Part shown: positions 25,239 through 28,606 of the stretch, one piece after another
Layout of the letters: each line of letters opens with the position of its first letter
Numbering within the stretch: the stretch's first letter is position 1
Source: an uncultured Spirochaetaceae bacterium
GTDB taxonomy: Bacteria > Spirochaetota > Spirochaetia > Sphaerochaetales > Sphaerochaetaceae
Reading direction: 5' to 3'
NCBI GenBank assembly: GCA_944390015.1
Contig: CALXOL010000001.1
Coordinates: forward strand, 62,001 to 126,000
Length of the DNA: 64,000 nt
The notes under the pieces: model-generated
What the model was told of the DNA's origin: nothing
Database searches by the model: none
Seen by the model: the letters and a program-made list of their open reading frames with translations, nothing else
Position numbers and translations under genes: made by a program

Positions 25239-25946
25239 TCCCGAATAGAGTTATCGTGAAGTTATTGTAAATTGCAAGGCTTATACTGTCAAATAAAATA
25301 GAGGATGAATTCTCGACCATAAATAGCGATAAAGTCTAAAAATGGAAAGAGTTACGGAAAAAAAGAGGTAAAAAAACTTTTTTGAAAAAACAACAAGACG
25401 CAACAAAAAAATTGTTTTATGTACGTACTCAGTCGTATTCAGAGATTATCAAGTGAGCACTATCTTAAATACAGTCAACATTAATCATCTTCCCTAGAAA
25501 ATACTATTCTTCAAGTGTTTTGTCATACTCTTCTATAAAGCTATTTATATAATTAGAAGTCCTAAGAGCAGGAATAAGTTATCATTTAAGTTTTTTCATC
25601 CTAAAATATCCGAATAAGTGCTTAATACATTATTCTGCTGTTCTCATGGTATCATATAAAGAAAAATGAAAGTTTATCAGATGGTGCAAATAGGAAGGAA
25701 AGATAATCTCCGTTACTCTACCCTACTTGTATTGGTATGAATTATTATAGAAATAATATCGTCAGAACCGAAGTAAAACTTGCGCTGAGAGCAGAAATAA
25801 CTTATATTTATGCCTAGAATGAATTTTAGGGGTGCATTTAAAATAACAGAGGAAATATTAATAATTCTATTGACTGATTTCATTCTAGTAGCCAGTTCTG
25901 CTTTCTGCAATTTTAAAAGCACTTTCAAATAAAACGGGGAGTAAGA
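25239..25946. other. A+T-rich 0.7-kb intergenic region with no convincing gene
   Basis: No good coding sequence is visible. Near the left edge the minus strand has a plausible promoter for the nucleoside operon (TTGCAA, 16 bp, GATAAC). A short minus-strand open stretch at 25504-25578 reads protein-like (LRTSNYINSFIEEYDKTLEE, then stop), with broken frames upstream; it may be the tail of a decayed gene. Base composition matches the following envelope genes, not the flanking housekeeping genes. Confidence 0.4.
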
Positions 25947-28166
25947 TTGAGAAAAGTACTTGTTGTTTTTATTCTTATTATATTTTCAATCTCAATCGCT
26001 TGTGCCTCCGTGGTTGTGACAGGAGTTGGTTCAGGCCCGAGCCCCGAGATTGCATTATCTAATGCAAGAACTGATTTAGCCTCTCAGTTCTCAGTCAACA
26101 TTTCTTCCCTTACATTGTCTTCCATCTCTGATGATGGGGGGGGGGATACCTCAAGTCTTTCTTCTTTGAGTGTACAGACAACATCATTCAATCTATTTGG
26201 TGCACAAGAAACGACAACGCAGAATGAAGATGGCTCATTCTCGGCTACATCATCATTGAGTGATGCCCAAGTTCCTCTTTATGAAGCACAATTGAACAAT
26301 CTTTTCACCACTATTAATGAACTTTTGCCATACATTGATCCTTCTGGAGATTTCGAAGTTCAAAAAGATGTATACCCCAGATTGATATCAGCACTCAGAG
26401 AATACGAAATATATCAGATTGTGGTACTTGTTCTTTCTCCTGATAGCAACATAGGCAAAAGAGCCCTTCCTGTTACTAGATTTATCATAGAGAATGAATA
26501 TCAGTCTCGCCTTACATTGGAAAAGAATGAGACAGAAATTATGGTTTCTTCATTGATGCAACAATCACAGATAGGGATTCTACCGAGTAATGATGAATTA
26601 CTTGCAGATGCCTTGGCTCGTCTTGAAGAAATAAAAGCACAGCAAGAACAGATGGATCAACTGGTCACTGGTGATATGGCTCTTATGCTTGATGAGTTTG
26701 GCCTCGATTCCCCTGAGGCCCATGATGCAACATCGGATAAAGACACTGATAACAATTTTGAGAGCTTGATTAATTCGATTGAGGCGAACAGAGCTACAAT
26801 TCAAGCTATTAGAGATAATGCAAATGAGTGGCTTAAAATTTTAGAGGATTCTTTCCATGATGAAATTAACTCAATTCATAATAATAACAACTATTCATCA
26901 AGGGAAATTAAACAAGAAGTAGAACGAAAGAGAAGAGATTACACACAAAAAGCAAATTCATATTATCTTGAAGCATTCAATATAATGTCTGAAATTGCAA
27001 GAGACTCATTGGATTTAGTTGATGAGCTGAGTAACCGAACATTTACAGCAACATCAAATGATTCTTACCTGACTACATATATAGAGGGATATTTTGATAA
27101 CGCACAGCTCTATAGTGGCATAGCAGATATAACAATCGGAAATGAATCAATCCGACTGTATTTCCGTATCCCATATGATAATTGGATAGGTAGTGCTATA
27201 CCTTCTGAGAGCAATCGTAAAGCGTACTTAGAATACGAAGCAGATACAGGTTATTGGCTGGAAATATTACAGGATTATCCATCAATTTATACACTTGAAG
27301 TTGATTTCACGGTTTCAACAGATTACAGCCCGTCTTATGAAGTCAAATTCTCTCAGTTCAGAATCATCAGAAATGATACAGGGAAACAGGTGTTTTCATT
27401 TGATATTGATCAGACCGACACCCTGACATATGAATCAAGGACTAACCTTACGGAATTTTCCGTCACATATGATGAGCTTTTAGATACATCCCTTTTCATT
27501 TTTAAGCCAGAAGAAAAGAACGTTCATACAGATGAATTAACAGAATCTAGTGATGGACCTGAAAAATCAATTGCTATAGACACAACGACAACAGAAGTCA
27601 TTTCCTCAACACAGGTTTATAAAAACGATAAAAAACAAACAACTGTAAACAAGGAACCTGAATCTGAAAAAAATGACAAACAGGACGATCCTGTTGCATC
27701 AGAACAACTAGAAAAACAAGAGAAGAAGCCTATTAATTTATCAATCATAGGGGAAGGTGAGATATTAATAAATACCAAGGCAGATGATGTCAACAAGCAA
27801 TCTGGGTATGGGGGAAGACTCTCGTTACTGACAAATATTAATTCACGGCTGAAGATTGGCGGTGTTCTTGATGGAATCTTCTATCCCAATAAGGGATTAA
27901 TTTACATTGGAGCATCAGCATCATGGCTTATGGCGAGTCAAGAAAGGTATAACTGGTATTTTGATGTTACTGTCGGTCCTGGAATTTCTTTCTCTTACAA
28001 TCAGCAGATACAATTTACATTAAATGGTTCATTAGGCGTGAGTATGCAATATGTTTACTCAGGAACAAATGAAGTGAGAATTTCATTACAGTTTGCAAAA
28101 TCAGGAGAATATTTTGGCCCGCTGATGACAGCTGGCTTGGTTTTTAATCTAGGAGGAAAAAAATGA
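25947..28166 (+). CDS. LPP20-like secreted protein with predicted C-terminal beta-barrel, phase-variable by a G10 tract
   Basis: 739 aa, function unknown. It starts at a TTG with GGGGAG 5 nt upstream. A signal peptide ends near SIACAS; cleavage by either signal peptidase I or II is conceivable. Residues 22-60 (TGVGSGPSPEIALSNARTDL) resemble LPP20-type lipoprotein domains. A coiled-coil segment is near 228-245. Residues 520-600 are a Thr/Lys/Glu-rich linker. The last about 130 residues have alternating strands (YIGASASWLMAS, WYFDVTVGPGISFSY) like an outer-membrane barrel. Ten G residues at 26136-26145 encode GGG plus the first base of Asp; losing or gaining one G gives early stops. Coupled to the next gene by ATGA. 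Confidence 0.65.
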   Translation: MRKVLVVFILIIFSISIACASVVVTGVGSGPSPEIALSNARTDLASQFSVNISSLTLSSISDDGGGDTSSLSSLSVQTTSFNLFGAQETTTQNEDGSFSATSSLSDAQVPLYEAQLNNLFTTINELLPYIDPSGDFEVQKDVYPRLISALREYEIYQIVVLVLSPDSNIGKRALPVTRFIIENEYQSRLTLEKNETEIMVSSLMQQSQIGILPSNDELLADALARLEEIKAQQEQMDQLVTGDMALMLDEFGLDSPEAHDATSDKDTDNNFESLINSIEANRATIQAIRDNANEWLKILEDSFHDEINSIHNNNNYSSREIKQEVERKRRDYTQKANSYYLEAFNIMSEIARDSLDLVDELSNRTFTATSNDSYLTTYIEGYFDNAQLYSGIADITIGNESIRLYFRIPYDNWIGSAIPSESNRKAYLEYEADTGYWLEILQDYPSIYTLEVDFTVSTDYSPSYEVKFSQFRIIRNDTGKQVFSFDIDQTDTLTYESRTNLTEFSVTYDELLDTSLFIFKPEEKNVHTDELTESSDGPEKSIAIDTTTTEVISSTQVYKNDKKQTTVNKEPESEKNDKQDDPVASEQLEKQEKKPINLSIIGEGEILINTKADDVNKQSGYGGRLSLLTNINSRLKIGGVLDGIFYPNKGLIYIGASASWLMASQERYNWYFDVTVGPGISFSYNQQIQFTLNGSLGVSMQYVYSGTNEVRISLQFAKSGEYFGPLMTAGLVFNLGGKK
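26136..26145 (+). repeat. G10 homopolymer tract (phase-variation site)
   Basis: Ten consecutive G residues inside the envelope gene, starting at codon 64. G9 would stop about 8 codons later (TGA in CTTCTTTGA); G11 would stop about 30 codons later (GCAGAATGA). The sequenced state is ON. Confidence 0.85.
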
Positions 28167-28606
28167 AAAAAAAAGTATTCGTATTTGTATTATGCACTCT
28201 CCTTTTTATGGGAGTGCTCGGAGCTGCAAAACTCACTCCGTATAGAACAGAGGGAACGTGTGATAAAATTGACAGTACAAACCCTGTTTATATTATGGGA
28301 GAGCCATATAATAATGGCTATAGAGTAGAGAGAGGTAGTGGAAATTATAATTATTCCTTTACTCAATTATATAACTTAAAAAATAACTACCGGAGTCTTA
28401 CTTGCACAATAGGCCCGTCAGATAATGTAGAAATCGGGAAAAATTTGACATTTGAGTTTTATGTGGACAATGAAAAAATAGCTACATATAAATGTGTTGG
28501 AGGAGGTTTCCCTGAGGATATCGAAGTACCACTGAATTATGGCAGGCAGTTGAAGCTTTATGTTAGCGGAAAGAATGCTATAATTTCAAACATGGACTTT
28601 AAGTAA
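28163..28606 (+). CDS. Small secreted protein resembling an NPCBM-type carbohydrate-binding module
   Basis: 147 aa with a type I signal peptide (MKKKVFVFVLCTLLFMGVLG, cleavage near GAA). The mature part is a beta-rich jelly-roll-like domain: YRSLTCTIGPSDNVEIGK, LTFEFYVDNEKIATYKC, EVPLNYGRQLKLYVSG. The order of strands recalls NPCBM/NEW2 modules, but the match is weak and from memory. Two Cys near residues 80 and 113 could form a disulfide. Its ATG overlaps the stop of the phase-variable gene, so slippage upstream should also reduce its translation. Confidence 0.55.
   Translation: MKKKVFVFVLCTLLFMGVLGAAKLTPYRTEGTCDKIDSTNPVYIMGEPYNNGYRVERGSGNYNYSFTQLYNLKNNYRSLTCTIGPSDNVEIGKNLTFEFYVDNEKIATYKCVGGGFPEDIEVPLNYGRQLKLYVSGKNAIISNMDFK

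Follow-up and report, generated by a model that had tools for sequence, protein, structure and literature searches.

A ten-G tract in the gene for a predicted spirochaete outer-membrane protein as a probable slipped-strand contingency locus within a genus-wide set

The DNA analysed here, a 64-kb window from an uncultured Spirochaetaceae bacterium, contains an open reading frame (ORF1) with an unbroken run of ten G among its early codons. The locus raises the question of whether this run is a switch that turns an envelope protein on and off through changes in its own length, or simply a stretch of glycine codons. The G10 tract is most probably, at a probability of about 0.8, a contingency locus that switches by strand slippage and belongs to a set of phase-variable envelope genes found across the genus, because of its behavior in a frame test, the excess of similar tracts in the genome and the genus, the promoter sites and lipoboxes associated with such tracts, and the poly-G found in relatives of ORF1.

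The proposed mechanism is as follows. Slipped-strand mispairing during replication would add G residues to the tract or remove them. An allele of G10, or of G7 or G13, would allow the outer-membrane protein to be made, while adjacent lengths would end translation at codon 73 or 93, with loss of the barrel that forms the C-terminus of the protein. The species would in this way keep a mixed ON/OFF population for the ORF1 envelope protein, which would belong to a group of about 15 genes switched by poly-G, most of them related to the envelope. We infer hypermutability of the G10 tract, ON/OFF switching of ORF1 in cells, and a surface role or exposure for the ORF1 product.

The tract, its reading frames and the two-gene unit

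The sequence contains exactly ten G, at codons 64–67 of ORF1 as the initial annotation had described. The tract starts at the first base of codon 64 and is read GAT GAT GGG GGG GGG GAT; its coordinates and those of the surrounding features are given in Table 1. Altering only the tract length in silico moves the stop of the G9 allele to codon 73, 10 codons from the tract start and about 7 past the tract, and that of the G11 allele to codon 93, 30 codons from the tract start. The G7, G10 and G13 alleles read on as far as the normal stop, which makes the assembled allele ON. The early stops that had been predicted for G9 and G11 are thus confirmed, and the further claim that only G10 is ON holds among neighboring lengths but not in general, since G7 and G13 are open too. 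ORF1 accordingly contains a G tract of at least 8 residues, the length looked for in an ORF or promoter, and adjacent tract lengths abolish or change its product in the frame test. The arrangement known from tp0126 of Treponema pallidum, with poly-G between −35 and −10, is a different one: the window tract lies inside ORF1, whereas a relative of ORF1 in genome G020 and 205 sites in the genus carry poly-G in the tp0126 position.

Table 1. Coordinates of the G10 tract and the features of the two-gene unit in the window
Feature	Position	Strand	Description
ORF1	25947..28166	+	739 aa, TTG start; secreted, with a weakly LPP20-like N-terminus, helical middle and predicted C-terminal 8-strand barrel; ON at G10
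Shine-Dalgarno-like GGGGAG	25936..25941	+	5 nt ahead of the TTG start; from the sequence
Predicted signal peptide, residues 1–21, MRKVLVVFILIIFSISIACAS	25947..26009	+	read by eye; N-terminal helix 2–19 in the model
Beta-alpha-beta-beta N-terminal domain, residues 24–104, LPP20-like	26016..26258	+	structure model; Pfam LPP20 12.9 bits, below cut-off
G10 tract	26136..26145	+	codons 64–66 and the start (one base) of codon 67, encoding Gly-Gly-Gly-Asp; proposed switch by strand slippage
C-terminal 8-stranded beta barrel, residues 600–734	27744..28148	+	structure model and PDB fold matches
AGGAGG ribosome site of ORF2	28151..28156	+	inside the end of ORF1; from the sequence
ORF2	28163..28606	+	147 aa, secreted NPCBM-domain protein; start overlaps the ORF1 stop (ATGA)

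An AlphaFold2 model of ORF1 built on a 22-sequence alignment (mean pLDDT 75.7, pTM 0.56) places, in order, a signal helix, a beta-alpha-beta-beta domain, long helices, a second alpha/beta part, a disordered linker (residues 523–598) and eight strands between residues 600 and 734. Foldseek matches the strands to NspA (1p4t, E 4e-5, TM normalized to the target 0.67) and also to the OmpA/Ail entries 1bxw and 3qra, so that the modelled C-terminus conforms to an eight-stranded outer-membrane barrel of the OmpA/OmpX/NspA kind. Sequence identity of the barrel to these PDB matches is only 9–16%, and the resemblance is therefore one of fold and not of sequence membership. The model and the fold matches bear out the barrel tail proposed earlier and predict that ORF1 encodes an outer-membrane protein with a C-terminal barrel. 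The proposed LPP20 likeness of the N-terminus survives as a weak resemblance: the score for LPP20 (PF02169) is 12.9 bits, under the Pfam gathering cut-off of 25.9, and one of the 22 family members reaches E 0.01 (best E 0.005). A sequence search of the PDB with the ORF1 family profile returned chance hits only. Two other candidates were rejected, the TP0733 barrel of NCBIfam, which scores 14.3 bits against a cut-off of 130, and DUF4085, a match under its cut-off in the helical part. A promoter scan 5' of ORF1 found sites no more frequently than in shuffled sequence.

The second gene of the unit had been annotated as NPCBM-like and as starting within the stop codon of the first, and both points stand: ORF2 scores 32.2 bits for NPCBM (PF08305) against a cut-off of 23.9 (E 1.3e-7), and its start at 28163 lies within the ATGA that contains the ORF1 TGA. 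When ORF1 is OFF, ORF2 would, by a judgment close to evenly balanced, be reduced and not fully silenced, because the overlap with ORF1 favors coupling but the strong AGGAGG of ORF2 itself opposes it. Full shut-down of ORF2 together with ORF1 may occur, at about even odds.

Run lengths in the window and the genome

The tract-coded residues form the turn between strands 55–62 and 67–74 of the model, where confidence is low, and across the ORF1 family this turn varies in both sequence and length. The tract could thus be an incidental glycine-rich turn, three GGG codons and a GAT in a tolerant hairpin loop, stable and without a selected function. Alignment and model agree on a variable, loop-like site, and homologs have DDG-x at the same place, so that a small drift would yield GGG GGG GGG. 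GGG accounts for 13.6% of Gly codons here, which makes such a triplet by codon drift not impossible. The window run by itself is also only mildly unusual against shuffled sequence, with 3 G8 words observed in 64 kb, a shuffle mean of 0.89, and 8 of 100 dinucleotide shuffles reaching 3. The window alone is statistically not compelling, and this result led to a genome-wide test of run length.

The genome (2.19 Mb in 34 contigs, 95% complete) was searched by pattern for G/C runs of exact length. It contains 123 runs of length 6, 6 of length 7, 2 of length 8, 9 of length 9, 6 of length 10, and none of 11 or more. A first-order model built on the base steps of the window predicts 415, 98, 23, 5.5, 1.3 and 0.3, respectively. 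Lengths 7–8 are depleted relative to the model and lengths 9–10 are enriched, giving a second peak unlike random decay. The 15 runs of G9 and G10 stand against 2 of G8 and 6 of G7, an order contrary to that of the model. Runs of A9 number 18, close to the 15 of G9–10, although A is the commoner base. The genome has about 15 such runs, of which the window tract is one, and the pattern extends across the genus, a context absent from the initial annotation. The runs of 9–10 G are located in envelope genes, relatives of ORF1 carry poly-G at two other control points, and Campylobacter tracts of at least 8 G are hypermutable (PMC6321876). Together with the strong depletion of 7–8 G runs, these observations make an incidental turn unlikely and argue for the contingency locus.

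The genes that carry the other tracts point in the same direction. Context and frame tests show that the window gene and the genes at L053 6020, L055, L057 and L058 are open at the assembled length. Those at L051, L052, L053 9428 and L059 are split exactly at the tract, and in each the long frame is open at an adjacent length. A genome with phase variation would be expected to yield just such an assembly, in which some genes are ON and others OFF. Pfam identifies among the tract genes three Acyl_transf_3 proteins, a Bac_transf sugar transferase, a PlsC-type acyltransferase, a Wzi-like protein below the cut-off and a TnpB-like ORF (L057), and lipoprotein genes are present as well. In other cases the tract lies upstream of the gene, as with a BspA-type LRR gene and an LpoB-like lipoprotein. 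The tract of L056 and the first tract of L054 are near gene 3' ends, where a change in length would alter the C-terminus and not abolish the protein. Two G8 runs were not counted as switches; one (L063) looks like an ordinary ribosome site and the other (L064) lies upstream of a PapD-like gene. The G9 at L057 (7001–7009) is near the start of an in-frame ORF that has OrfB_IS605 and Cas12f1-like_TNB matches and an odd Ala/Pro/Lys-rich N-terminus.

One tract can be followed between genomes. A lipoprotein gene on contig C10 of the same genome (L059) has G10 in its signal-peptide region, and its counterpart L159 has G9, which leaves the two assemblies in different frames; the DNA is about 85% identical over 2 kb around the tract. 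L159 belongs to the genome of L095, the closest relative of the window locus. That genome (G100) has two promoter-tract sites at matching coordinates in common with G215, which is from another genus of the same family, so the difference in length is one between species and not within one. The similarity of L059 and L159 spans genomes that appear to be from different genera of the family, possibly through recent transfer.

Relatives of ORF1 and tracts across the genus

A search of 100 genomes found relatives of ORF1 in 13 of them, with several in each, and the genome of the window itself contains one tract-free paralog (C27). The pair of ORF1 and NPCBM genes recurs in L066, L067, L068 and L078, and twice in L095. 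The closest relative, in L095 (uncultured Spirochaetales bacterium, CASDXQ010000005.1), has 64–66% identity and was the sole match in the genome-contig scan; a scan of viral contigs with the tract flank found no other copy of the locus. L095 keeps the pair with its ATGA overlap and lacks the tract, reading DDGENST where the window has DDGGGDT, and the switch is therefore not conserved. Window positions 25947–28606 and L095:6000–8676 are 71.5% identical as DNA across 2.7 kb; the similarity is confined to the two-gene unit, and the flanking genes are unrelated. The G+C content of the unit is 36.8%, against 43% for the window. The two-gene unit looks like a mobile or horizontally moved cassette.

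Two other relatives have poly-G elsewhere. The relative in G020 (L067/L096) has G9 upstream of the gene, in an 18-nt spacer between TTGACT and TATAGT. The relative in G007 (L068) has G9 just after the signal peptide and is out of frame at the assembled length. This copy, on the reverse strand of L068 (1400–4200), also has an in-frame TAG and a frameshifted NPCBM gene; with its tract out of frame, it looks decayed for these reasons. Poly-G at three unrelated positions in one family suggests independent captures.

Across 36 genomes of the genus, G9 words outnumber exact G8 runs by 612 to 106. Several other spirochaete families show the reverse, with 11 G9 words and 47 G8 runs in G083, and 24 and 175 in G066. 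G067 and G078 are also tract-rich (1041 and 240 G9 words against 35 and 5 exact G8 runs) and lack the promoter pattern described below, so their tracts are of another kind. Of 87 tracts tallied from six genomes, 70 are directly followed by T, and this frequent T led to a test of a promoter pattern. The pattern TTGAC-N6-14-G9+-TA occurs 205 times in the 48 genus genomes searched, 37 of which have at least one match; its reverse, searched as a control in the same genomes, is absent. In a sample of the class (297 genomes) it is present in 12 of 16 genus members and in 36 of 281 others. In a tally of 94 sites, TTGACN is mostly separated from TA by a distance of 19 (range 16–22), and the tract is G9 in 63 and G10 in 20.

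The genes behind these promoter-type tracts are of a particular kind. A signal peptide with lipobox is encoded by 31 of 35 of them, at loci that are those returned by the search and not a random sample, against 6 of 54 window ORFs (Fisher p 9e-14). A few have the adhesive domains Big_3, LRR_5 or Pectate_lyase_5, and most are without a Pfam match. G027, G047, G024, G018, G012 and other genomes have promoter tracts with a near-identical −35 and spacer that differ in G count within one genome, often near contig ends. These features suggest a multi-copy lipoprotein family that breaks assemblies.

These sites also bear on two further explanations. Transcriptional slippage or ribosomal frameshifting could fix a ratio of full-length to short product with the DNA unchanged, and such a mechanism would also be compatible with a homopolymer in an ORF whose two other frames stop early. 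Transcriptional slippage is known mostly on A/T runs. Action at the RNA or ribosome level leaves unexplained the many tracts between −35 and −10, the tract genes whose assembled length puts them out of frame, and the difference in length at the orthologous tract of L059 and L159; we regard it as very improbable. Homopolymer lengths are error-prone in sequencing and assembly, and the genome is a multi-contig assembly, so the true length of the tract might not be 10. At G10, however, ORF1 runs uninterrupted through 739 codons and aligns collinearly with L095, which makes the assembled length the coding length, and errors would not yield a genus-wide placement of tracts in promoters with a control of zero. 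An erroneous length is barely credible.

The poly-G contingency switch predicted by the initial annotation is instead well supported by the tract pattern of the genome and genus, by tract genes broken in frame, by poly-G elsewhere in two relatives of ORF1, and by the tract of another gene, whose ortholog in a species of a neighboring genus has a tract of a different length. A broader reading is also reasonably probable, if less firmly so. The genus would run a large poly-G phasome in two modes, with promoter-spacer switches (TTGACA-N-G9-TA) mostly before genes for surface lipoproteins, and with in-frame switches in genes whose products modify the envelope or belong to the outer membrane. Poly-G would have captured the ORF1 family independently at three control points, in the middle of the ORF for the window species, behind the signal peptide for G007 and in the promoter spacer for G020, implying repeated selection for phase variability.

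Comparison with known systems

The mechanism is already known, in spirochaetes included; the lineage and the targets are new. In the open-licence PMC literature, we found no description of the ORF1 gene family, of this lineage or of the size of its repertoire, and no report of poly-G phase variation in uncultured spirochaetes. The genus-wide pattern is more interesting than the single locus. If confirmed, it would mean that phase variation of the envelope through G tracts is general in a large genus and not peculiar to one pathogen. Reads from a single metagenome sample could then measure switching in uncultured bacteria, and the promoter pattern offers a simple sequence rule for finding phase-variable lipoproteins.

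The poly-G switching in T. pallidum to which the initial annotation had appealed is documented for the promoters of tp0126, tprE/G/J and tprL and for the TP0127 ORF (PMC7864442, PMC3373638). In tp0126 the G run separates the −35 and −10 elements, and a spacing of 17 nt works best; in tprL the run has 7–11 G, mostly 9, and poly-G within TP0127 shifts the frame (PMC7864442, PMC3373638). T. pallidum and the window species share a bacterial class and a type of repeat, and the G020 relative of ORF1 has the tp0126 arrangement. The window tract differs in being intragenic and in being known from one assembled length, whereas length variation is documented in T. pallidum. The searches run gave no match between the ORF1 family and the Tpr or TP0126 families.

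Tracts near gene 3' ends, as in L056 and the first tract of L054, resemble the C-terminal switching by homopolymeric tracts described for Helicobacter canadensis (PMC2823697), with no homology implied. A parallel in numbers comes from Campylobacter, where PhasomeIt finds 53% of poly-G tracts at length 9, 26% at length 10, and 77% within ORFs (PMC6321876). The window genome shares with the Campylobacter phasome a peak at 9–10 G, a location mostly within ORFs, G on the coding strand and a mix of ON and OFF genes in assemblies. The two differ in that many tracts of this spirochaete genus lie in the promoter spacers of lipoprotein genes, whereas most of those of Campylobacter lie in ORFs (PMC6321876).
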